Assembly: GCA_903822185.1 (NCBI GenBank)
Contig: CAIJOA010000011.1
Span: 248,001-312,000, forward strand
Direction of reading: 5' to 3'
Source: an uncultured Rhodospirillales bacterium
GTDB lineage: Bacteria > Pseudomonadota > Alphaproteobacteria > ATCC43930 > CGMCC-115725
DNA: 64,000 nucleotides
The number at the start of each line of letters is the position of its first letter. Positions within the stretch are counted from its first letter, which is position 1. Positions 1 through 56,279 of the stretch are shown in pieces. The notes under the pieces were generated by a model, which saw only the letters and a program-made list of their open reading frames with translations, was not told the DNA's origin and searched no databases. The translations under genes were made by a program, and so were the position numbers.

Positions 1-1570
1 ATTCAGATCCGCGTACGCACATCTTGCCGCGTTCGTCCTGCCACAGCTTTTCGGTCGTGTGCAGATAGCCGAGGGCGCGAGCGACGGTGCCGAAGTCGTA
101 TTCTTTGAAATGCTCGGCAATGTCGGTGTAATAGACCGGCAGCTTCGCGATCAGCTCGAGAATCTTTTCCGACAGCGCTTTGACGTCGGCCTCGGTGCCG
201 TTCTTGCCGGGCGTGTCGCCTTTGCCTTTGAGGTAATCGCCGATCTTCGCCGTATCGGCATAAGCATAGGAAATACGCTCGAACCGTTCCTTCGGAATAC
301 CTTCGGAAATCGTCGCATCGATACCGACCTTGGCCGTCGTCGGCACGACACCTTGCGGCATCGGCAGGAGGCTGGGGTCGAGCGGTTTGCCGCGCGCTTC
401 GGTGATGACCATGATATCGCGGTCGCCCTGCACGCGGGTCGCAATCGCCCATTCGACATCGTTGGCGTTGAAGACGTCGATATCGTCATCGACGACGACG
501 ACATGCTTCAAATCCATCACCGACAAGGCCGCGAGCAGCGCGTTCTTGCCCTCGCCCGCCTGCTTCTTGATCGAAATGACCGCGTGCCAGAAGGCGCAAC
601 CGCCCAGCGTGACATTGATGTCCTTCACCTGCACGCCAGCGGTGCGCAGCGCCTGACGGATCGCGGCATAGCGCGTCGGCGCGGCGAGCCAGGTATTTTC
701 CCACGGCATATGCAGCGCGTAATAGACCGCGTCCTTGCGATGCGAGATTGCCTTCACCCGCACCAACGGGTTCCAGTGCAGCCCACCCATCAGCCGGGTG
801 AATTCGCCGAAGCGACCTTCAGGCCAGGTCCAGCCGGTTGGCAGGATTTCGGCTTCGATGACGATTTCGGAATCGGCGATGTAGGGCAGATCGATGGTCT
901 GGCATTGCGCCAATTCGACCGGTTCGCCGCGCATGCCGCCGGCGATGCCCATTTCATCGACGCCGAGCGGCGCGCGATAGCCCGAGCCCATGATTTCGAA
1001 CGGATGATTGCCGATGCTGATCGAGATCGGCAGCGGCTTGCCCGCCTTGAAAGCACGATCGGCGAAGAGCCGCATATTGTTCGGCGTCACCACGTCGATG
1101 CCGGTGAGGCCCTTTTCCTTTACGAGGAAGCGGTAGATGCCACTGTTGAGGCCCAATTCGGGATCGCGGGCGATGACGATGCCGGCAGTGATGACGGGAC
1201 CGCCATCGAACACCGAACACATCGGAATAGGGAGGTCGTACAAATTCGCATCGTCGCCGACCAGGGTGACTTCGCGCGTCGGCGAGGTTTCCACCATTTT
1301 TGGCGGTATCGGATGGTCGAGCGCGTTTTTGAGCTTATCTTCGATTTCGCGATACGTTTCACAGCCCATCGACATGATGGCGCGTTCGCGCGAGCGGATG
1401 ATGCCGGAGACGACCGGCATCTTATAACCGATCACATTATGGAAATAGAGCGCGGTTTCGGCCTGATCCACCAGGGTCGCGATATGGCGGATATCAACGG
1501 GTTGGTGCAGATCGACCAGCTCGCCAGCCTGCCGCAACCTATCGAGGAAACCACGAAAGCTCTCGGTCAT
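1..1570 (-). CDS. UbiD family decarboxylase (3' end cut by window edge)
   Basis: This reading frame runs open from an ATG at 1570 to the left window edge, giving 523 codons without a stop, so the C-terminus lies outside. It contains typical UbiD-family stretches: an N-terminal FRGFLDRLRQAGEL segment, the PIPMCSVFDGGPVITAG region, and a GRFGEF motif near residue 265 corresponding to the EGxxGE motif around the prenylated-FMN site. UbiD enzymes reversibly (de)carboxylate aromatic or unsaturated acids with prFMN supplied by a UbiX partner, which is not in this window. The gene diverges from the MDR-thioesterase-ligase run at 1637, suggesting a shared catabolic role. A second complete UbiD lies at 32539-34062. 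The substrate cannot be deduced from sequence. Confidence 0.9.
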   Translation of the reverse strand, partial: MTESFRGFLDRLRQAGELVDLHQPVDIRHIATLVDQAETALYFHNVIGYKMPVVSGIIRSRERAIMSMGCETYREIEDKLKNALDHPIPPKMVETSPTREVTLVGDDANLYDLPIPMCSVFDGGPVITAGIVIARDPELGLNSGIYRFLVKEKGLTGIDVVTPNNMRLFADRAFKAGKPLPISISIGNHPFEIMGSGYRAPLGVDEMGIAGGMRGEPVELAQCQTIDLPYIADSEIVIEAEILPTGWTWPEGRFGEFTRLMGGLHWNPLVRVKAISHRKDAVYYALHMPWENTWLAAPTRYAAIRQALRTAGVQVKDINVTLGGCAFWHAVISIKKQAGEGKNALLAALSVMDLKHVVVVDDDIDVFNANDVEWAIATRVQGDRDIMVITEARGKPLDPSLLPMPQGVVPTTAKVGIDATISEGIPKERFERISYAYADTAKIGDYLKGKGDTPGKNGTEADVKALSEKILELIAKLPVYYTDIAEHFKEYDFGTVARALGYLHTTEKLWQDERGKMCVRGSE

Positions 1571-1636
1571 GGATGCGTCCTGGGGCAAGGTTTGCTACAA
1601 GTCGTTAACGCTACAAAAGGGCAAGGAGCTGCGCAA

Positions 1637-2656
1637 GTGAGTGAAGAGACAATGCGCGCGTTGGTGTTGAAGGCGCATGGCGGGCTCGACAACCTGACCG
1701 TGGTCAACGATTACCCGCGTCCGAAGGCAATCGAAGGCCACGTCGTCATCCGTGTGCGGGCCAGCTCGTTCAATTATCATGACGTGTTCACGATGCGCGG
1801 CATGCCCGGCATCAAGGTGCCGCTGCCGATCGTCATCGGCCTCGACATGGCCGGCGAAATCGCCGAGGTCGGCGATGGCGTCGCACGCTGGAAAAAAGGT
1901 GACCGCGTTCTCGTCAACCCGGTCAACAAGCGTAAAGGCTTGCTGGGCGAGATGATGGATGGCGGCATGGCGCAATATTGTCTTGTCGCCGTTGATCAAT
2001 TGATCGCGATGCCCGACGACGTCACCTTCGCCGAAGCCGCATCGCTGCCGGTCGCTTACGGCACCGCGCATCGCATGCTGATCACCCATGACACGATCAA
2101 GCCGGGCGAGAAGGTACTCATCCTCGGCGCATCGGGCGGTGTCGGCACCGGTTGCGTCATTCTCGCCAAGATGCTGGGCGCGCATGTCATCGCCTGCGCC
2201 AGCAGCGACGAGAAGCTGAAGCGCCTGTCTGAAATGGGTGCCGACGAAACGCTCGATTACACCAAGCAGGATTTCTCGAAATGGGTGGTCGAGAAATACG
2301 GCAAGCCGCAGCGCCGGTCGTATGAAGGCGGCCTCGACGTGATCATCAATTTCACCGGCGGCGATACCTGGAACCCGTCGCTGAAATGCCTGAAACGCGG
2401 CGGTAAGCTGCTGGTTTGCGGCGCGACTGCCGGCCACGATCCGAAAGAGGATCTGCGTTACATCTGGACCTTCGAGTTGAAAGTCATCGGCTCGAACAGT
2501 TTCTATGACGAAGATCTGAGCGGACTTATGACTCTCATCGGCCAGAAGAAGATCAAGCCGGTGATCGACAAGGTCCTTCCGCTTGACCAGGCCGCCGAAG
2601 GCCTGCGCCTTATTCAAGATCGCGAAATCATCGGGAAAGTGATCATCGAACCATGA
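1637..2656 (+). CDS. Quinone-oxidoreductase-like MDR dehydrogenase
   Basis: This is a 339-residue medium-chain dehydrogenase/reductase. The GroES-like N-terminus contains SSFNYHDV, typical of zinc-independent quinone oxidoreductase-like members, and the Rossmann nucleotide-binding motif GASGGVG lies near the middle. The likely reaction is NAD(P)H-dependent reduction of an enone, quinone or enoyl-CoA type substrate. I chose the GTG at 1637 because AAGGAG (1623-1628) sits 8 bases upstream; the ATG at 1652 is the alternative. The frame stays open far upstream to position 59, but that part is antisense to the UbiD gene and has no homology of its own. The stop overlaps the next start (ATGA at 2653-2656), so the two are translationally coupled. 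Confidence 0.88.
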   Translation: MSEETMRALVLKAHGGLDNLTVVNDYPRPKAIEGHVVIRVRASSFNYHDVFTMRGMPGIKVPLPIVIGLDMAGEIAEVGDGVARWKKGDRVLVNPVNKRKGLLGEMMDGGMAQYCLVAVDQLIAMPDDVTFAEAASLPVAYGTAHRMLITHDTIKPGEKVLILGASGGVGTGCVILAKMLGAHVIACASSDEKLKRLSEMGADETLDYTKQDFSKWVVEKYGKPQRRSYEGGLDVIINFTGGDTWNPSLKCLKRGGKLLVCGATAGHDPKEDLRYIWTFELKVIGSNSFYDEDLSGLMTLIGQKKIKPVIDKVLPLDQAAEGLRLIQDREIIGKVIIEP

Positions 2657-3072
2657 GCGAAGACATCACTCTCGAACGTGCCCAGGAACTAATCACCCGC
2701 GCGCCGTATCACCAATGGCTGGGCCTCAAGGTCACCGCGCTGACCGATAATTCGATCGAGATCACAGCGACGTGGCGCGAGGAATGGGTCGTCAACCCGG
2801 AACGCCGCTATACCCATGGTGGCATTCTCGCCGCGCTGATCGACCTCGCCGCCGATTGGGCGCTGCTCAAAAGCAACGGCCGTCCGGTTCCGACCGTCGA
2901 TCTGCGCGTCGATTATCACCGTGCTGCGATGCCGGGCGATCTGACCTGCAAAGGCACCGTCATTCGCGGCGGCCGTCAGGTTTCCACCTGCGAAGCGCAA
3001 ATCTTCGATAAAGACGGCAAGCTGCTCGCCAGCGGCCGCGGCACCTATCTCACTGCACCGCCGGAAAAATAA
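2653..3072 (+). CDS. PaaI-type hotdog-fold thioesterase
   Basis: A 139-residue single hotdog domain. The segment HGGILAALIDLAADWAL matches the core helix of PaaI/YbgC-like acyl-CoA thioesterases (general HGG...D pattern), followed by DLRVDYHRAA and the typical beta strands. Such proteins hydrolyse acyl- or aryl-CoA, either to salvage CoA or as a pathway step. It overlaps the upstream dehydrogenase by four bases, and its stop codon directly abuts the start of the acyl-CoA ligase, so all three are probably cotranscribed. Pairing with a CoA ligase suggests both act on the same CoA-bound intermediate. Length is normal for the family. Confidence 0.88.
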   Translation: MSEDITLERAQELITRAPYHQWLGLKVTALTDNSIEITATWREEWVVNPERRYTHGGILAALIDLAADWALLKSNGRPVPTVDLRVDYHRAAMPGDLTCKGTVIRGGRQVSTCEAQIFDKDGKLLASGRGTYLTAPPEK

Positions 3073-4581
3073 ATGGCATCTTTCACCAACCTGGGCGATC
3101 TGATCCGCCGCGACCGCGATCCGTCGAAGGTCGCGGTCATCGACCTGGGCGGTGAAACCGGGCCACGCGAATTTTCCTTCGCCGCCATCGATGCGATGGC
3201 CAAGGGCGTTGCGCGCGGCTTGATCGCACGCGGCCTCAAGCGCGGCGACCGCGTGGCAATCCTGTCATTGAACCGGGCCGAATATATCGCCGCTTATTAC
3301 GGCATCATGCGGGCCGGGCTGATCGCTGTGCCGGTCAATTTCAAGTTCCCGGCCTCAACCATCGACTACATCCTGCGCGACAGCGGCGCGAAGCTGGTGT
3401 TCTGCGATGCGCCCCGGCGCGACGATGTACCGGCGGATTTCCCCGCCATCGCCTTCGGCGCTGAATTCGATGCGTTCCTCGATCCCGGCGACTTCGAGTC
3501 CGTCCTCCCCGCGCCGGACGAGCCGGCGATGTTTCTTTATACCTCGGGCTCGACCGGGACGCCGAAGGGCGTCGTGCTATCGCACCAAAGCCATCTTTGG
3601 GTCGTCGAGATGCGTCTCGCCGGTCAAGACATCGAACGTCATCGTTATCTGATCGCGGCGCCGCTCTATCACATGAACGCCCTGGCGCTGTCGAAGCTCG
3701 CCAGCGCCGGCTATGCGAGTATCGTGCTGATGCCGCAATTCGCGGCGCGCGACTATATCGAGGCCATCGGCACCTATCATTGCACCTGGCTGACCGCCGT
3801 GCCGCCGATGGTGGCGATGATGCTGCGCGAAAACGATCTGCTGGCGCGCACCGATGTATCGTCGGTCGAGTTCGTCCGCATGGGATCGGCGCCGGTCAGT
3901 CCGAGCCTTTGGGCGGCGCTGGCCCGCGCCTTGCCCCAGGCCAAGGCGACCAATGCCTATGGCACGACCGAAGCCGGCCCCGTCGTCTTCGGCCCGCATC
4001 CCAAAGGCCTGCCGCAACCGCCGGACAGTGTCGGCTATCCGCATCCACAAGTGCAGCTTCGTCTTGTCGAAGGCGACGGCCGCAGCGTGTCGCAAGGCGT
4101 TCTCGAAATGAAATGCCCGGCGGTGATGCTGGGCTATCACAATCGGCCCGATTTGCGCGGTGTCATCACGTCCGACGGTTTCTACGTGACGCGCGACGTT
4201 TTTCGGCGCGACGAAAACGGCTTTCATTATTTCGTCGGGCGCAGCGACGACATGTTCGTCTGCGGTGGCGAGAACATCTATCCGGGCGAAGTCGAGCGCA
4301 TGCTCGAAACCCATCCAGCGATCGCCCAAGCCGCCGTCGTGCCGATCGAGGACGACATCAAAGGCCAGAAGCCGGTCGCCTTCGTCGTCAAGAAAGACAA
4401 CGCGACGCTCAGCGCCGAAGACGTGAAGCAACATGCCCTCGCTCATGCGCCGCCGAACGAGCATCCGCGCTTTGTCTGGTTCCTCGACAAGCTGCCGCTG
4501 GCCTCGACCAACAAGGTCGATCGGGCGGCGCTGACGGCAATGGCGCGCGAGCGGGTCAAGGCTGGTAACGGCACGGTTTAG
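3073..4581 (+). CDS. AMP-forming acyl-CoA synthetase / CoA ligase
   Basis: A 502-residue member of the ANL adenylate-forming superfamily. The ATP-binding P-loop YTSGSTGTPKG is at residues 156-166, the acyl-adenylate motif NAYGTTEAGP lies in the middle, and the C-terminal lobe has GRSDDMFVCGGENIYPGEVE plus a late lysine in STNKVDR, where the catalytic lysine is expected. The reaction is carboxylate + ATP + CoA to acyl-CoA + AMP + PPi. The start abuts the thioesterase stop with no gap, indicating one operon with the MDR enzyme and thioesterase. The acid substrate cannot be read from sequence; aromatic or branched acids are plausible given the neighbours. Confidence 0.9.
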   Translation: MASFTNLGDLIRRDRDPSKVAVIDLGGETGPREFSFAAIDAMAKGVARGLIARGLKRGDRVAILSLNRAEYIAAYYGIMRAGLIAVPVNFKFPASTIDYILRDSGAKLVFCDAPRRDDVPADFPAIAFGAEFDAFLDPGDFESVLPAPDEPAMFLYTSGSTGTPKGVVLSHQSHLWVVEMRLAGQDIERHRYLIAAPLYHMNALALSKLASAGYASIVLMPQFAARDYIEAIGTYHCTWLTAVPPMVAMMLRENDLLARTDVSSVEFVRMGSAPVSPSLWAALARALPQAKATNAYGTTEAGPVVFGPHPKGLPQPPDSVGYPHPQVQLRLVEGDGRSVSQGVLEMKCPAVMLGYHNRPDLRGVITSDGFYVTRDVFRRDENGFHYFVGRSDDMFVCGGENIYPGEVERMLETHPAIAQAAVVPIEDDIKGQKPVAFVVKKDNATLSAEDVKQHALAHAPPNEHPRFVWFLDKLPLASTNKVDRAALTAMARERVKAGNGTV

Positions 4582-4629
4582 GCCGCCCCCTACCCCGGCT
4601 ATAGTGAACGACAACAAGGGGAGGCAGAA

Positions 4630-5319
4630 ATGGTCAATACGGTTTCGATCGATGTCGCGGGCGGCAAGATGGATGTCTTGCTGGGCGTTCCCGAAGGCGC
4701 AGGCCCTTTCCCGACCATCGTCGTGGTGCATCACCGCTGGGGGCTCGACGGCTTCACCAAAAGCGTCGTCGAACGGCTCAACCAGAACGGCTTCATCGCC
4801 GGAGCATTGGAATTCTATCATCGCCGTCCCAAAGGCGAAGACACGGCAGAATCGGTCACGTTGCTTAATGACGATGAACTGATCGCCGATCTCCGCGCCG
4901 GTACGAACTATCTGCAATCCCTGCCCCAGGCGAAACGCGGCAGCGAAGCGATCATGGGCCATTGCATGGGTGGCCGCGTCTCCTTCCTCGGCGCGACGGC
5001 GCATCCTTTCAAAGCGGCCGTGATGCTGTATGGCGGCGGCGTCAATCATTCGCGCAAGGGCAACCCGCCAATCCTGACCCGGGCATCGAATATCGGCTGC
5101 CCGATCCTCGGCTTCTTCGGTAAGGACGACAAGAACCCGAGCCCGGCCGACATGGTCGAGATCGACACCGAGCTGACACGCATCGGTAAGAAGCACGAGT
5201 TCCACGCCTATGACGGCGCGGGCCACGCCTTCCAGAACTTCACCGACGAACGTTATCGCCCCGAAGCGTCGGAAGACGCCTGGCGGCGCTATCTCGCCTT
5301 CTTCAAAGAGACGCTTTAA
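4630..5319 (+). CDS. Dienelactone hydrolase family protein
   Basis: A 229-residue alpha/beta hydrolase of the dienelactone hydrolase family. The nucleophile is the cysteine in GHCMGGR (Cys112), as in true dienelactone hydrolases; an acid around Asp166/167 (GKDDKN) and a histidine near 199 (GAGHAF) complete the triad. A strong Shine-Dalgarno (AGGGGAGG) precedes the ATG. Classical members open the lactone ring in chlorocatechol or protoanemonin pathways; others act on varied esters. It lies 48 bases downstream of the CoA ligase on the same strand and probably belongs to the same catabolic transcript. Confidence 0.88.
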   Translation: MVNTVSIDVAGGKMDVLLGVPEGAGPFPTIVVVHHRWGLDGFTKSVVERLNQNGFIAGALEFYHRRPKGEDTAESVTLLNDDELIADLRAGTNYLQSLPQAKRGSEAIMGHCMGGRVSFLGATAHPFKAAVMLYGGGVNHSRKGNPPILTRASNIGCPILGFFGKDDKNPSPADMVEIDTELTRIGKKHEFHAYDGAGHAFQNFTDERYRPEASEDAWRRYLAFFKETL

Positions 5320-5353
5320 CGAAGACTAAAAAATATAAATCGAGGGGGAAACC

Positions 5354-6325
5354 ATGCAGCCGATCGTCGAATTCCACACCCACATCATCCCGCCCGAAGA
5401 CACGCTCGATCCGCATTGGCGCGGCAAATGCCCGCTGACGATCGAGAACGTGATCGAGGCCCACGACCAGAACGACATCGCCCTGTCAGTCGTCACCGAT
5501 TCGATCCACCAGTTGAAAGATTACGACAAAGCCCAAGCACTCGACACGTTGAAAGGTTGGCACGACCGCGCCGCCGCCTTGCAGGAAAAACATCGCGGCA
5601 AGATCGTCTGTTTCGGCAGTACCGTGCCGACCGGCGGCAAAGATTTTGAAAAGGAACTGGTCCGCGCTTTCGATGAATTGAAGCTCAAGGGCGTCTTCAT
5701 CACTTCCAGCATGTGGAAGACCTATCCGGATGATGAAGAGGCGATCCCTTTCTGGGAGATCGTCGCCGACCGTGATCTCCCGGTCTTCATCCATCCGCCG
5801 TCGAGCGCTTACGGCGAAGAACGGATGCGCAATTACGGCCTCAATTCCAGCATCGGCCGTCCTGCCGATAACATGCTGTGCCTCGCACGGCTGATCGTCA
5901 GTGGTATCTATGAACGCTTTCCAAAACTGAAAATCGTCGCCTCGCATCTCGGCGGCGGCATCTCCGAAGTCATCGGCCGCATGGATTACGCCTATGAAAT
6001 GCGCGACGACAGCTTTCTCGGCAATTATTCACCGGTGCTGATCAAAGCCCCGCCGAGCCATTACCTCAAGAAGATGTATCTCGATCTTGCCTGTTATCAC
6101 CTGCCGGCGGCGAAATGTGCGATGGAGACGGTCGGCGTCGATCACGTCGTCTATGGCAGCGACGCGCCGCCGCTGACCTGGTTGAAACCGCGTGCGATTC
6201 AGTTGGTCAAAGATCTGCCCGTGACCGAGGAAGAACGCGCCAAAATTTTCGCCGGCAACGCGCTGAAACTGATGAAGCTGACCAAAGACGAACTGCCGCC
6301 GGTGCTGCAGCAATACGCCGTCTGA
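5354..6325 (+). CDS. Amidohydrolase-2 (ACMSD-like) family protein
   Basis: A 323-residue metal-dependent hydrolase of the amidohydrolase-2 group, which includes ACMSD and gamma-resorcylate decarboxylase. The N-terminal EFHTHIIPP carries the first metal-binding HxH, ASHLGGGI supplies the later histidine, and VVYGSDAPP carries the catalytic aspartate near the C-terminus. Members perform non-oxidative decarboxylation or hydrolysis in aromatic degradation. AGGGGGA lies just upstream of the ATG. It follows the dienelactone hydrolase by 34 bases and ends three bases from a convergent MFS gene. Two further family members are in the window (30231-31163 and 59539-60600). Confidence 0.87.
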   Translation: MQPIVEFHTHIIPPEDTLDPHWRGKCPLTIENVIEAHDQNDIALSVVTDSIHQLKDYDKAQALDTLKGWHDRAAALQEKHRGKIVCFGSTVPTGGKDFEKELVRAFDELKLKGVFITSSMWKTYPDDEEAIPFWEIVADRDLPVFIHPPSSAYGEERMRNYGLNSSIGRPADNMLCLARLIVSGIYERFPKLKIVASHLGGGISEVIGRMDYAYEMRDDSFLGNYSPVLIKAPPSHYLKKMYLDLACYHLPAAKCAMETVGVDHVVYGSDAPPLTWLKPRAIQLVKDLPVTEEERAKIFAGNALKLMKLTKDELPPVLQQYAV

Positions 6326-6328
6326 CGC

Positions 6329-7906
6329 CTACGTCTTTCTGCGCGGCGCGCCAATCGTCAGCGCCGCGCAGAGGCCGCTTGCAACAGCAAGCCCGGATGC
6401 CGTCAGCATCACCAGCCGGAACGCACGAACGAACGACTCATCGATAGCGGTCTTCAACGCAAGCCGGGTCGCCGCATCGGCATCGCGCGGCGCTGCCGTC
6501 TCGGCCAATCGCGGCACTTGTTCATCCATCACCTGACGCAGCGCCGGCGCGATATTCATGCTTTCCATCCGCGCATCGAGGGCTGTGCCGAAGGTGCCGA
6601 CCGCCATCGCGCCGAACAGGGCCACGGCGAGAAGTCCCGCAATACGCGCCGCCGCATTATTGATACCCGAGGCGGCACCGGCCCGGCGTTGATCGACCGC
6701 GCCCATCACCACCGTCGTCAACGGCGCGACGCTGACCGTCATGCCGAGGCCGAGCACCAGCATCGCCGGAAAGAACGTCGTCCAATACGATCCGCCGATA
6801 CCCGGCAGCAGGAACAACGCGAAACCGCATGCGGCGATCAGCGGCCCGACGATCAGCGGCAAACGCGCGCCGTAATGCCCGATTAACGCGCCCGACCATC
6901 GCGACAACAATCCCATCATCAGGCTGAGCGGCAGGAAGGATGCGCCGGCCATCGCCGCCGAATAGCCCTGGATGCGAATGAGATTGAACGGCAGGAAGAA
7001 TAGCGCCCCGCTAAGCGCGCTGTAGAGCAGCAAGGTCATCGCGTTGGCGCCGCTGAAAGCTCGTGCGCGAAAAAGATCGAGCGGCATCATCGGCGCCGCC
7101 GTTCGTCCTTCGAACCAAATGAATCCGGCCAACGCGACCAAGCCACTCACGACGGGCTCGAGAACGGCACGGTCGGTCCAGGGCACATCCGACGCCATGC
7201 TGGCGCCATAGGCAAGTCCGCCAAGACCGAGCGTCGCCAGCAACGCACCCCGCCAATCGACCGGTGCATCCTTTCCCGCGACATGGCTTTCGGGCACATG
7301 ACGCAATGCGATCGCCAGGGCGATCAGCGCCAGCGGTACATTGATGAAGAACACTGCGCGCCATGACAGCCAATCGACGAGCATGCCGCCGAGCACTGGT
7401 CCCAAAGCCGTCGTCAGCGCGGAGAACCCGGCCCAGGTGCCGATCGCCTTGCCGCGTTCGTTCTCGGCGAAGGCTGCGCTGATGATCGCAAGACTGCCCG
7501 GCACGAGCATCGCCCCGCCGATCCCTTGCGCCGCACGCGCAGCGATCAGAACGACGGCATTGGGCGCAAAGCCGCAGACGACCGATGCCACCGTAAAAAC
7601 GAAGATGCCCAGTACGAAGACCCGCTTGCGGCCGAAGCGGTCGCCTGCCGCGCCACCGACCAGGATCAGCGCGCCGAGCATCAAGAGATAAGCGTTGATG
7701 ACCCACTGCGTCGCCTGCACCGATGCGACGAGATCGGCTTGGATTGCCGGCAACGCGACGTTGACCACCGAGCCATCGATGAAGGCCAGACTGGAACCGA
7801 GGATTGTCGCCGCTAATACCCAGGGCTTGGCGCGGGCATCGCAGCCGACGGTCTCGACCGCACGACCGGCGGCTTCATCACATGGCGTCGGCCCCAGTGC
7901 GGTCAC
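6329..7906 (-). CDS. MFS drug-efflux transporter, DHA2 (EmrB/QacA) type
   Basis: A 525-residue membrane protein with about 14 predicted transmembrane segments, the length and topology of the DHA2 drug:H+ antiporter branch. Family signatures include FIDGSVVNVALPAIQ at the first helix, GDRFGRKRVFVLG in the loop between helices 2 and 3, and GPVLGGMLVDWLSWRAVFFINVP in motif C. The function is probably proton-driven export of toxic organics. The gene runs against the amidohydrolase with a three-base gap and lies four bases downstream of the CocE-type hydrolase, so it may share that transcript. No membrane-fusion partner is present. Confidence 0.88.
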   Translation of the reverse strand: MTALGPTPCDEAAGRAVETVGCDARAKPWVLAATILGSSLAFIDGSVVNVALPAIQADLVASVQATQWVINAYLLMLGALILVGGAAGDRFGRKRVFVLGIFVFTVASVVCGFAPNAVVLIAARAAQGIGGAMLVPGSLAIISAAFAENERGKAIGTWAGFSALTTALGPVLGGMLVDWLSWRAVFFINVPLALIALAIALRHVPESHVAGKDAPVDWRGALLATLGLGGLAYGASMASDVPWTDRAVLEPVVSGLVALAGFIWFEGRTAAPMMPLDLFRARAFSGANAMTLLLYSALSGALFFLPFNLIRIQGYSAAMAGASFLPLSLMMGLLSRWSGALIGHYGARLPLIVGPLIAACGFALFLLPGIGGSYWTTFFPAMLVLGLGMTVSVAPLTTVVMGAVDQRRAGAASGINNAAARIAGLLAVALFGAMAVGTFGTALDARMESMNIAPALRQVMDEQVPRLAETAAPRDADAATRLALKTAIDESFVRAFRLVMLTASGLAVASGLCAALTIGAPRRKT

Positions 7907-7910
7907 GCCC

Positions 7911-9617
7911 TCATTCCCCCGTCAGCGGCCATCCATCCGTATTCGGCGCCCACGACCCCGGCGTCAGCGGCCAGTTGATGTCCGCGACCGGCGACGTCAC
8001 CGTCGCAATCTCGGGCGCGTCGGGAATGACTGGCAACAGCAGATGCGACGGATGCGCTGCATCGTGATGGATCGTGTTCTCGACCGGCCAAGGCAACAGC
8101 AGTACGTCGATCTGACGCAGCGGGTTGGTGTATTGGATATCCTCGCTCGAAATCTGAAGCTGCAACCGATGACCGGCTTTGATCGTATGGAAGACGGGGC
8201 GCAGCTCGATCTGGAATTCGTAAATCTTGCCCGGCTCCAACAATTCGGATTCAAGGAACGGATGGAACGGTTGCCCCGGCTTCGACCGCGCTGGATCGAG
8301 CGCGCGGAAAGATGCTTTGAGAATGCCGCGGCTTAAGGGGCGCGCCGTGCCGTCAGGTTGGATGTCGGCCAGCTTCACGAACCAGGCCGTATCGATCTGC
8401 GACGACGACGCATAAAAGGTCAGGCTGACCGGACCTTGCAACGTCAGCGACTTCTCCGCCGGCGCGGTCGTGTAAGCGAGCGCCGGTTTGCCGGCCGCGA
8501 GCTGCGCATAAGAATCCGGCATGCGATAGCTATCGGGCTTTTCGTCGCCAGCCGGTGCGGCACGATCGAGGCTGCCTTCGTGCAGATAGAATTTAGTCCA
8601 TTCCATCCGCGCCAGCGGATATTCATTCTCGTAACGCCACTTGCGCGTACCGGAATCGAAGATCGCGGCCAGCGGCTCATTCATGATGCCGTTATCGATG
8701 CCTTTGAGCCAATAATCGAACCAGCGCAGCATCTGTCGGTTGAGATTGCGATCGGTGAGATAGCGCATATGCGACCAGAACCCGGTCGGCGGCACGACGA
8801 GCAGTTTCTTCGGCGCGTCGATTTCGGGAAAGCCTGCAAGCTGTCCGCGCATATGCATCGCCCCGCCCTGCGGCACGATACTCATCACCGGCGTTTTGAT
8901 CTTATCGAGTTTGGTCCAGGCCGAACGTTCCCAATACCACGGCCCATCGACCGGATGATTGGCGATCTCGTAATGTGCGTTCATCGGCGGCAGCTTGCCT
9001 TCGACCGGCCCCGGCCAGGCGAACATATTGGTATGATAATTGATCCAATTGTTCATGAATTCGGCATTGAAGATGCCGCCTTGGTAACAGGCGTCGCGAT
9101 AAAGATCGGTCGTCGCATCGCATTGGCAGATACATTTGAGATGCGGCGGCTGCGCTGCGGCGGCGATGTATTGGCTCCAGCTCCAATAGGAATCGCCGAT
9201 CATCCCGACATTGCCGGTACACCAGGGCTGCTGCGCCATCCATTCGATCAGGTCATAACCGTCGGTGCGCTCATGCTCGTCGAACCAGGCCCATTGGCCT
9301 TGGCTCAACCCACCGCCGCGTCCCTGCGCGATGACATGGACATAGCCTTTCGGGACATAGAACGAGGTCGCGCCGGATTCGATCGCATGACTCCAATGCG
9401 GCGGCTTGCGCTGGATGTCCTTGTTGTAAGGCGAGAGCGAGAGCAACGCCGGATATTCGCCGTCCTGCTCGGGCCGATAGACATCGACCGCGAGCCGCAC
9501 GCCGTCGCGCATCGTCACATAGACGTTGGCATCGACCTTGATGCCGGGCACCGGTACCGGTGGCGCCTTCACCAGTTCGGCCGGATGCAGCAGCGTCACC
9601 TTCGGATCGTCGGCCAT
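7911..9617 (-). CDS. CocE/NonD-type alpha/beta hydrolase
   Basis: A 568-residue protein with the X-Pro dipeptidyl peptidase/cocaine esterase architecture: an N-terminal alpha/beta hydrolase core (VTMRDGVRLAVDVYRP, residues 34-49), a cap, and a C-terminal jelly-roll domain. The nucleophile region reads GMIGDSYWSW with Ser143; the family motif is usually GxSYxG, so the fifth position is Trp rather than Gly. A GGGAGGG Shine-Dalgarno precedes the ATG at 9617. Substrates in this family are esters or amides; the true one is unknown. It sits between a DHA2 transporter and another alpha/beta hydrolase, all on the same strand. Confidence 0.85.
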   Translation of the reverse strand: MADDPKVTLLHPAELVKAPPVPVPGIKVDANVYVTMRDGVRLAVDVYRPEQDGEYPALLSLSPYNKDIQRKPPHWSHAIESGATSFYVPKGYVHVIAQGRGGGLSQGQWAWFDEHERTDGYDLIEWMAQQPWCTGNVGMIGDSYWSWSQYIAAAAQPPHLKCICQCDATTDLYRDACYQGGIFNAEFMNNWINYHTNMFAWPGPVEGKLPPMNAHYEIANHPVDGPWYWERSAWTKLDKIKTPVMSIVPQGGAMHMRGQLAGFPEIDAPKKLLVVPPTGFWSHMRYLTDRNLNRQMLRWFDYWLKGIDNGIMNEPLAAIFDSGTRKWRYENEYPLARMEWTKFYLHEGSLDRAAPAGDEKPDSYRMPDSYAQLAAGKPALAYTTAPAEKSLTLQGPVSLTFYASSSQIDTAWFVKLADIQPDGTARPLSRGILKASFRALDPARSKPGQPFHPFLESELLEPGKIYEFQIELRPVFHTIKAGHRLQLQISSEDIQYTNPLRQIDVLLLPWPVENTIHHDAAHPSHLLLPVIPDAPEIATVTSPVADINWPLTPGSWAPNTDGWPLTGE

Positions 9618-34230: not shown

Positions 34231-34318
34231 ACGCCATCACGATAACGGCATAACCGGGGAGACCCGGCGACGCAAAGCTTACGGTCCATGTTGGATAGCG
34301 GGGCTACCGAAAGTAGGC
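34231..34318 (+). promoter_or_regulatory. Cyclic di-GMP-I (GEMM-I) riboswitch
   Basis: The segment holds the diagnostic conserved blocks of the c-di-GMP-I aptamer: ACGGCATAACC, a P2 hairpin CCGGG-GAGA-CCCGG with a GNRA loop, the invariant GACGCAAAGC, then CGGTCC and GGATAGCGGGGCTACCGA (tetraloop-receptor arm). The 3' end runs into AGTAGG, the likely Shine-Dalgarno of the gene at 34324, six bases before its ATG, so ligand binding could control translation. A weak promoter (TTGATT at 34168, TAATTC at 34189) may lie upstream. Boundaries are approximate. Confidence 0.88.
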
Positions 34319-34323
34319 ATACG

Positions 34324-35052
34324 ATGTGGGGTCGATTTATTCTGGCGCTCTGCGGAATCGCAGCGCTGGCCTGTGCCTCTGCCGCTCCAAGCTGGGCAGC
34401 GCGGACACCAAGCAACGATACAAGTTACGGCGATAATTACAGCTATGCCTATCATCCGGCCTTGTTCGGATCGCGCGAGATGTATTCCTCGCACACCGAA
34501 CGGTTCCGGGCATGGAACGATATGCTGTCGCGAACGGGGTCGGAATTTTCGGGGTCGCAGCGCATCTGTGCGACGGATCGCGACACCCGCTGCATTCCCG
34601 CCGAATGGCAAGCGCTGATCAACGAGTTGCGCGGGCAGGACATTCACACGCAGATCGAGCGCGTAAACCAGGCGATGAACCGTCACCCCTACGTGACGAC
34701 CGTCGCCAACTGGCATCAGTCGATGTATTGGGAAACGCCCTACGAGTTCCTGCGTTACGGCGGGCAATGTCAGGATTATGCGATCGTCAAATATTATCTG
34801 CTGCGCGCCGTCGGCGTGCCCGCAGATCAGTTACGCATGGTCGTGCTCCATCATGCCGCGCGGGCCGTCGATCATGCGGTGCTGGCGGTCTATATCGATC
34901 ACGACATCAAGATCCTCGACAATCTGCGCAGCGACATCGTCTCGGCCGACAGCATCTCCTATTACCGGCCCTATTACTCGATCAACGAGAACGGCTGGTG
35001 GTATCACGTTGGCGGCCAATCAATGATCCGCGTCGCCGGCGGCTATCGCTGA
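34324..35052 (+). CDS. LapG-like transglutaminase-like cysteine protease (BTLCP/DUF920)
   Basis: A 242-residue exported protein. After a signal peptide (core FILALCGIAALACASAAP, cut near residue 26) comes a BTLCP domain with the catalytic triad Cys149 (YGGQCQDYA), His184 (VDHAVLAV) and Asp199 (KILDNL). LapG, the best known member, is a periplasmic calcium-dependent protease that cleaves surface adhesins to release biofilm cells. The ATG at 34324 follows AGTAGG; an ATG at 34288 lies inside the riboswitch and is rejected. It is controlled by a c-di-GMP riboswitch. No lapD or large adhesin gene is in the window. Confidence 0.88.
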   Translation: MWGRFILALCGIAALACASAAPSWAARTPSNDTSYGDNYSYAYHPALFGSREMYSSHTERFRAWNDMLSRTGSEFSGSQRICATDRDTRCIPAEWQALINELRGQDIHTQIERVNQAMNRHPYVTTVANWHQSMYWETPYEFLRYGGQCQDYAIVKYYLLRAVGVPADQLRMVVLHHAARAVDHAVLAVYIDHDIKILDNLRSDIVSADSISYYRPYYSINENGWWYHVGGQSMIRVAGGYR

Positions 35053-56032: not shown

Positions 56033-56144
56033 GCACGCAACCAAGTCTCGCCCTGCGATGAAGGCAGGGTGAGACTTGTGACGTCTTCTCGGAGAGAGTT
56101 CCGATCACGGCGCACAGCTCTTAACCAAGGCCCAAAACGAAAAG

Positions 56145-56168
56145 GGGCCGCACAACGAGGCGCGGCCC
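56145..56168 (-). terminator. Terminator after the amidase gene, with adjacent hairpins
   Basis: GGGCCGC (56145-56151) and GCGGCCC (56162-56168) form a hairpin that on the minus strand runs into CCTTTTCGTTTT, ending the amidase transcript. A separate 15-base inverted repeat (CAAGTCTCGCCCTGC at 56042-56056 with GCAGGGTGAGACTTG at 56064-56078) follows the aldolase gene and may end it. The rest of 56033-56279 shows no gene. Confidence 0.7.
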
Positions 56169-56279
56169 AAGTTCAGGGAGGAAAAGCCCGAAGGACTTAC
56201 AAACGCGGAGGATGAGCCCCGCACTGCACAGGCAATTTAGACGATTGCTCGTGAAAAAATCGTTAAGGCCTAAAGGGAC

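Follow-up and report, generated by a model that had tools for sequence, protein, structure and literature searches.

Known Links Between c-di-GMP and Surface Proteases

Control by c-di-GMP of the adhesin-cutting BTLCPs, transglutaminase-like cysteine proteases of the PF06035 family, has so far been described as a protein-level process in which a membrane receptor sequesters the protease. LapG, the protease of the LapD/LapG system of Pseudomonas fluorescens, is held after its synthesis by the transmembrane receptor LapD and is inactive at high c-di-GMP. DvhG/DvhD of Desulfovibrio vulgaris likewise combines a BTLCP, a type I secreted adhesin and control by c-di-GMP, without a canonical LapD; here control was proposed to lie with the protein receptor DvhD, an HD-GYP protein with dCache, and DvhG keeps a calcium site that is required for activity, its calcium-ligand variant D316A/E318A being inactive (PMC13090378). 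Not every alphaproteobacterial BTLCP has to be an adhesin protease: HvyA of Caulobacter, with a signal sequence and a C-H-D triad, restricts capsulation in G1 cells. HvyA is itself G1-restricted and PleC-dependent, is encoded among capsule export genes, has conserved calcium ligands and is not known to be under a riboswitch (PMC4241560).

At the RNA level, the zmpI gene of Clostridioides difficile is negatively regulated by a class I c-di-GMP riboswitch, and its product, the exported protease Zmp1/PPEP-1, releases surface adhesins (PMC6366702). The principle of placing a riboswitch on an adhesin-releasing protease is already known from this example, which differs in being a zinc metalloprotease of an unrelated family, acting on sortase-anchored adhesins in a Gram-positive organism (PMC6366702). 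A BTLCP under a riboswitch would parallel it using unrelated parts. We found no paper in the open-licence literature that links a c-di-GMP-I riboswitch with a BTLCP or LapG.

The stretch of DNA analyzed here, hereafter the window, comprises 64,000 nucleotides from an uncultured Rhodospirillales bacterium. It holds an aptamer that shares with known c-di-GMP-I riboswitches (RF01051) its sequence, P2/P3 architecture and contacts of the G20/A47/C92 type, and that likewise lies in the 5′ leader directly before the Shine-Dalgarno (SD) sequence. It departs from them in having a BTLCP gene as its target, in an A-G mismatch within P3, and in a P3 5′ strand that would double as an anti-SD. With LapD/LapG the locus has in common the BTLCP fold, the C-H-D triad and c-di-GMP as the signal, and the likeness extends to type I secretion genes beside the second BTLCP copy of the host. 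It differs in that control would act at the RNA, LapD was not found, the calcium ligands are replaced, unlike in DvhG and HvyA, and the equivalog cut-off is missed.

The c-di-GMP-I Aptamer of the Window

An earlier note on this DNA, drawn from the letters alone, had proposed a c-di-GMP-I riboswitch placed directly on a LapG-like protease gene. The covariance scan gave no poor score, the leader lying well above the RF01051 gathering score of 35 bits (Table 1; E 2.9e-8, computed for the 64 kb window), and the GEMM-I blocks that the note had read in the leader are all present: GACGCAAAGC at 34269-34278, the GNRA-capped P2, and GGATAGCGGGGCTACCGA at the 3′ side of the aptamer. G 34247, A 34274 and C 34307 are presumably the usual ligand-contacting G20, A47 and C92 in Vc2 numbering. 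By homology the leader is confirmed as a c-di-GMP-I aptamer, and it would be expected to bind c-di-GMP. The c-di-GMP-I-GGC variant (RF03167) was rejected, with 48.3 bits below a cut-off of 59 and a consensus that calls for G at the position of A 34274.

Table 1. Features of the riboswitch leader and protease gene, in window positions.
Feature	Position	Strand	Basis
c-di-GMP-I (GEMM-I) riboswitch aptamer	34237..34311	+	RF01051, 56.1 bits
P2 hairpin CCGGG-GAGA-CCCGG, GNRA tetraloop	~34254..34267	+	sequence and alignment to RF01051 P2
GCUUAC, part of P3 5′ strand, proposed anti-Shine-Dalgarno	34277..34282	+	pairs with 34313-34318 in MFE and centroid
GUAGGC, including Shine-Dalgarno GUAGG (34313-34317)	34313..34318	+	6 nt 5′ of ATG 34324
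BTLCP (PF06035) transglutaminase-like cysteine protease, 242 aa	34324..35052	+	PF06035, triad, fold

As the note had described, the 3′ end of the aptamer adjoins the SD, which begins 2 nt past the end of the match, and 12 nt separate the match from ATG 34324. This is the likely start codon and opens a signal-peptide-like N-terminus; the in-frame ATG 34288 was rejected as a start, as it falls within the aptamer and gives no signal peptide. The riboswitch thus lies directly on the BTLCP gene, in an architecture that fits translational control.

Recurrence of Aptamer-BTLCP Pairs

The host genome, a 4.27 Mb draft that is 95% complete, has exactly two matches to RF01051 and two to PF06035, and the two sets pair off, each PF06035 gene having one aptamer immediately 5′ of it. 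The GTDB-like host family (39 genomes) has 13 aptamers in ten genomes. Downstream of 12 of them we found a BTLCP gene, using a profile built from the family, and at the thirteenth (L007) a contig end interrupts the gene after a matching N-terminus. A chance match is rejected because both aptamers and both BTLCPs of the host genome are paired and the same holds for 13/13 aptamers in the family. The link is one-way, an aptamer implying a BTLCP and not the reverse, since the family also holds BTLCPs without an aptamer: ten in the profile search, with no Rfam match at those examined. Two aptamer-less members, L016 and L017, are canonical LapG-type BTLCPs. The first of them (G016:C79; PF06035 148.7 bits) comes from a genome in which another BTLCP is aptamer-linked.

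Throughout the class the aptamer is present in 33 of 385 genomes. Outside the host family there are five aptamer-BTLCP pairs, all in family f41 (L060, L067, L071, L073, L080). When 52 BTLCPs are placed on a tree, the aptamer label needs five changes, and none of 500 shuffles needed as few, a comparison that near-copies inflate; the linkage is therefore clustered, yet was gained or lost more than once. Other aptamers of the class sit 5′ of genes for ParA-like ATPases, flagellins, response regulators and more. Those 5′ of a ParA/MinD-like ATPase gene occur in other alphaproteobacterial families (L044, L046, L050, L051, L053, L054, L055, L058; likewise L062, L064, L076, L079, L083, L086), some of them ~90-130 bases 5′ of the start, and the ATPases carry the motif SQKGGSGKTT. 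This set, a further c-di-GMP-I regulon whose target would be a partitioning-type ATPase, may deserve a study of its own. Family f68 has up to five c-di-GMP-I aptamers per genome, with three (L077, L089, L090) directly 5′ of flagellin-like genes.

A BTLCP of LapG Fold

The window protein matches PF06035 with 56.9 bits (cut-off 27), has the catalytic triad C149, H184 and D199, and begins with a hydrophobic, signal-peptide-like N-terminus that suggests a periplasmic location. Its nearest solved structures, by sequence and by fold, are LapG of Legionella and Pseudomonas; the predicted structure gave a Foldseek value of 4.1e-12 and a VIA Z of 18.2 to L. pneumophila LapG, with a mean pLDDT of 77.9 for a model confident in its core and not at residues 19-44 and the C-terminus. 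Of the earlier description as a LapG-like protease, the PF06035 assignment, the triad and the LapG fold hold, but the identity with LapG does not. The protein is no LapG in the strict sense, because it scores 91 bits against the LapG equivalog NF045674 (cut-off 320) and the D/E calcium ligands flanking the catalytic Cys are replaced by Q148 and Q150. Judged by sequence and model, it is a LapG-fold BTLCP and no LapG orthologue; the second BTLCP copy of the host reaches 90.9 bits with NF045674.

The presence of Q148 and Q150 may mean that the enzyme works without calcium, or that it is altered or inactive. The motif QCQD/QCED is common to the whole host-family clade, its four aptamer-less members included, whereas DCED is kept in four of the five f41 proteins (the pattern gave no motif in the fifth, L073), so that only in the host family does loss of the calcium ligands coincide with aptamer linkage. 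The two Gln residues could be taken for the mark of a relic whose aptamer or protease is no longer functional, and the same could be said of the aptamer, which is the lowest-scoring of the 13 in the host family (56.1 bits vs up to 71) and has a weak P3 with one non-standard pair, the A-G mismatch, in the alignment to RF01051. Such decay is nevertheless very improbable in our view. The aptamer still scores far above gathering and keeps its ligand-contacting bases, the change in P3 is matched by a change in the SD, the open reading frame is intact with triad and core residues invariant over the BTLCP alignment, and the altered calcium positions are not the decay of a single copy, given that QCQD/QCED is shared by the whole clade.

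Proposed Expression Platform

An intrinsic terminator was rejected as the expression platform; the leader has no terminator-like site, which makes translational control the simplest reading. The overall stability of the leader is unremarkable (z 0.4), and a hairpin just 5′ of the aptamer is found at most loci, but shuffles are often equally stable. Folded without ligand, the P3 5′ strand and the SD form a helix of 6 bp in both the MFE and the centroid structure. The probability that the SD is unpaired is ~0.1 in the free ensemble and ~0.6 with the aptamer P3 enforced, a difference reproduced, at 25 and 37 °C, with most of the 24 transcript ends tried and weakest at the longest 5′ extension. 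This gain in SD access is partly built in, because enforcing P3 excludes the SD helix by construction; the informative parts are instead that the SD is not re-sequestered once P3 is enforced, and the covariation.

Both the P3 strand and the SD of the window depart from the family consensus (GCCUCC and GAGG), yet they pair, with a native energy of -8.4 kcal/mol compared with a mean of -3.7 kcal/mol when the P3 strand is crossed with the SDs of other loci. In permutations the native pairing was equalled in 0/5000 cases for 18 loci, in 2/5000 for 13 less redundant loci, and in 150/5000 for the host family alone. As a MAFFT leader alignment puts the window SD off by one base, changes in P3-SD pairing were counted on hand-registered leaders; strict changes on both sides are seen in two pairs, C-G to A-U in the window and G-C to A-U in L013, a level that 48 of 500 shuffles reach. 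Within the host family the covariation appears modest, resting on the window and L013, and is suggestive rather than conclusive; at the five f41 loci the pairing is weak. Genus g6 (L006-L008) has another hairpin, GGGGCUUC/GAGGCCCC, which sets the P3 3′ strand against the SD and, from its fold, predicts an ON switch as well.

From evidence that is all sequence-based, we favor, at about an even chance, a translational riboswitch through which c-di-GMP raises the synthesis of a LapG-fold BTLCP that processes or sheds an exported surface protein. The aptamer, as the 5′ leader of a gene for a signal-peptide-bearing BTLCP, would govern its translation. Without ligand, the P3 5′ strand would pair with the SD and block initiation; with c-di-GMP bound, it would be drawn into P3, leaving the SD free and more protease to be made. 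The signal seems in this way to set the amount of protease made, rather than only restraining the finished protease. The ON sign predicted by folding of the window leader is the opposite of classical LapD/LapG logic and would pre-load or balance the protease at high c-di-GMP. The model yields a clear ON/OFF prediction at two complementary sites.

An OFF switch, in which a P1 stabilized by ligand extends into the SD so that the protease is repressed by c-di-GMP and induced when the signal is low, would be in keeping with classical LapG logic and with Zmp1 of C. difficile. In several relatives the flank 5′ of the aptamer indeed pairs with the SD (CCUCA/UGAGG in L009 and L010, CCUUA/UGAGG in L011, GACUUU/GAGGUC in L001), and the SD of L010 stays paired in the constrained state. 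For genera g10/g11, pairing of CCUCA in the flank with UGAGG of the SD could lengthen P1 in the bound state and hide the SD, which would make the switch OFF. The permutation of flank against SD gave 11/5000 within the host family, but 484/5000 once near-identical loci were removed. In the window the flank offers only GCC/GGC, 3 bp, against the competing P3-SD helix of 6 bp that dominates the free ensemble, and we consider an OFF switch rather unlikely.

LapD, Adhesins and Secretion in the Host Genome

The earlier note had seen no lapD or adhesin gene nearby, and a profile search of the window agrees, with none next to the protease gene, whose neighbors are catabolic (UbiD-like, NMT1-like, LLM monooxygenase, FAA hydrolase). 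A search for LapD and LapA-like adhesin genes in the 95%-complete assembly also found neither. The LapD periplasmic domain PF16448 has no match in the host genome, though the model does match in 13 relatives. The LapA-type retention module NF033682 and the RTX repeat PF00353 are both without a match in this draft, from which large repetitive genes may be lost, and the genomes compared are mostly draft MAGs, where large repetitive adhesin genes are often missing. Among the four GGDEF proteins that the host genome encodes, two have GGEEF and resemble active diguanylate cyclases in sequence, and a third is a PAS-GGDEF-EAL protein that, by inspection, lacks the LapD architecture.

The note had offered the riboswitch as an alternative or added layer of biofilm-release control. 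An added layer over LapD does not apply, as the searches turned up no LapD and no LapA-type adhesin; RNA control may instead be the only c-di-GMP input to the window protease, and biofilm-release control by this copy would be plausible. The favored ON switch would then serve a branch of the protease that has lost the calcium ligands beside its catalytic Cys, in a genome without a detected LapD. Tentatively, and with some doubt, one may go further and suppose that this branch swapped post-translational LapD sequestration for a riboswitch, which became the sole route of c-di-GMP to the protease while the calcium site was lost. Under this reading the sign would be reversed in part of the branch, and adhesion would carry a built-in brake or stockpile. 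A regulon in which every detected aptamer of the family stands on a BTLCP gene would be a second route for the signal, at the RNA, in genomes without a detected LapD, and would help to explain the role of the many alphaproteobacterial BTLCPs without LapD.

As for the substrate, it would most likely be a large exported surface protein, processed or shed by the protease. The second BTLCP copy of the host is found 3′ of, and in the same orientation as, a type I secretion cluster with TolC-type (TIGR01844), LssB-type (TIGR03375, 957 bits) and HlyD-type (TIGR01843) genes, from which a prepilin-peptidase-like, an RHH/PAS and an unassigned gene separate it; the order is conserved in the congener (L156). 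The aptamer-linked BTLCP gene of G038 (L162) is divergently oriented to a locus that encodes TpsB (ShlB/POTRA) and a TpsA-type protein of 2135 aa. The latter has a TPS domain and DUF5649 repeats; with TpsB (943-9298) it forms a pair resembling CdrA/CdrB, and by that analogy it is a candidate substrate; LapG of P. aeruginosa targets CdrA, an adhesin of the two-partner-secretion type (PMC4694147). These neighborhoods favor an adhesin-processing role without proving it, least so for the window copy.

The protease might instead act like HvyA and regulate capsule or envelope polysaccharide, in which case the riboswitch would tie envelope coating to the sessile/motile decision. HvyA shows that a BTLCP with a C-H-D triad can have such a role, the window score of 57 bits with PF06035 is far below the 150-230 bits of canonical LapG-type relatives, and an aptamer-linked BTLCP of the congener, 55% identical to that of the window (L157 8274-10366), follows cheB and adjoins a chemotaxis cluster. 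We find this doubtful, however, as the closest solved structures are those of LapG (in a comparison that included no HvyA structure), the window copy has no capsule export genes beside it, and the secretion cluster by the second copy and the TpsA/TpsB genes by that of a relative are both of adhesin-export types. The predicted calcium-binding residues are moreover conserved in HvyA (PMC4241560) and not in the window protein.

Two matches to the suhB/mmgR sRNA family of Rfam (43.6 and 46.3 bits, cut-off 41) were also found in the host genome, at window positions 56130-56203 (-) and at L155 2735-2806 (-). The L155 match precedes the TolC gene of the type I secretion cluster and shares its strand.
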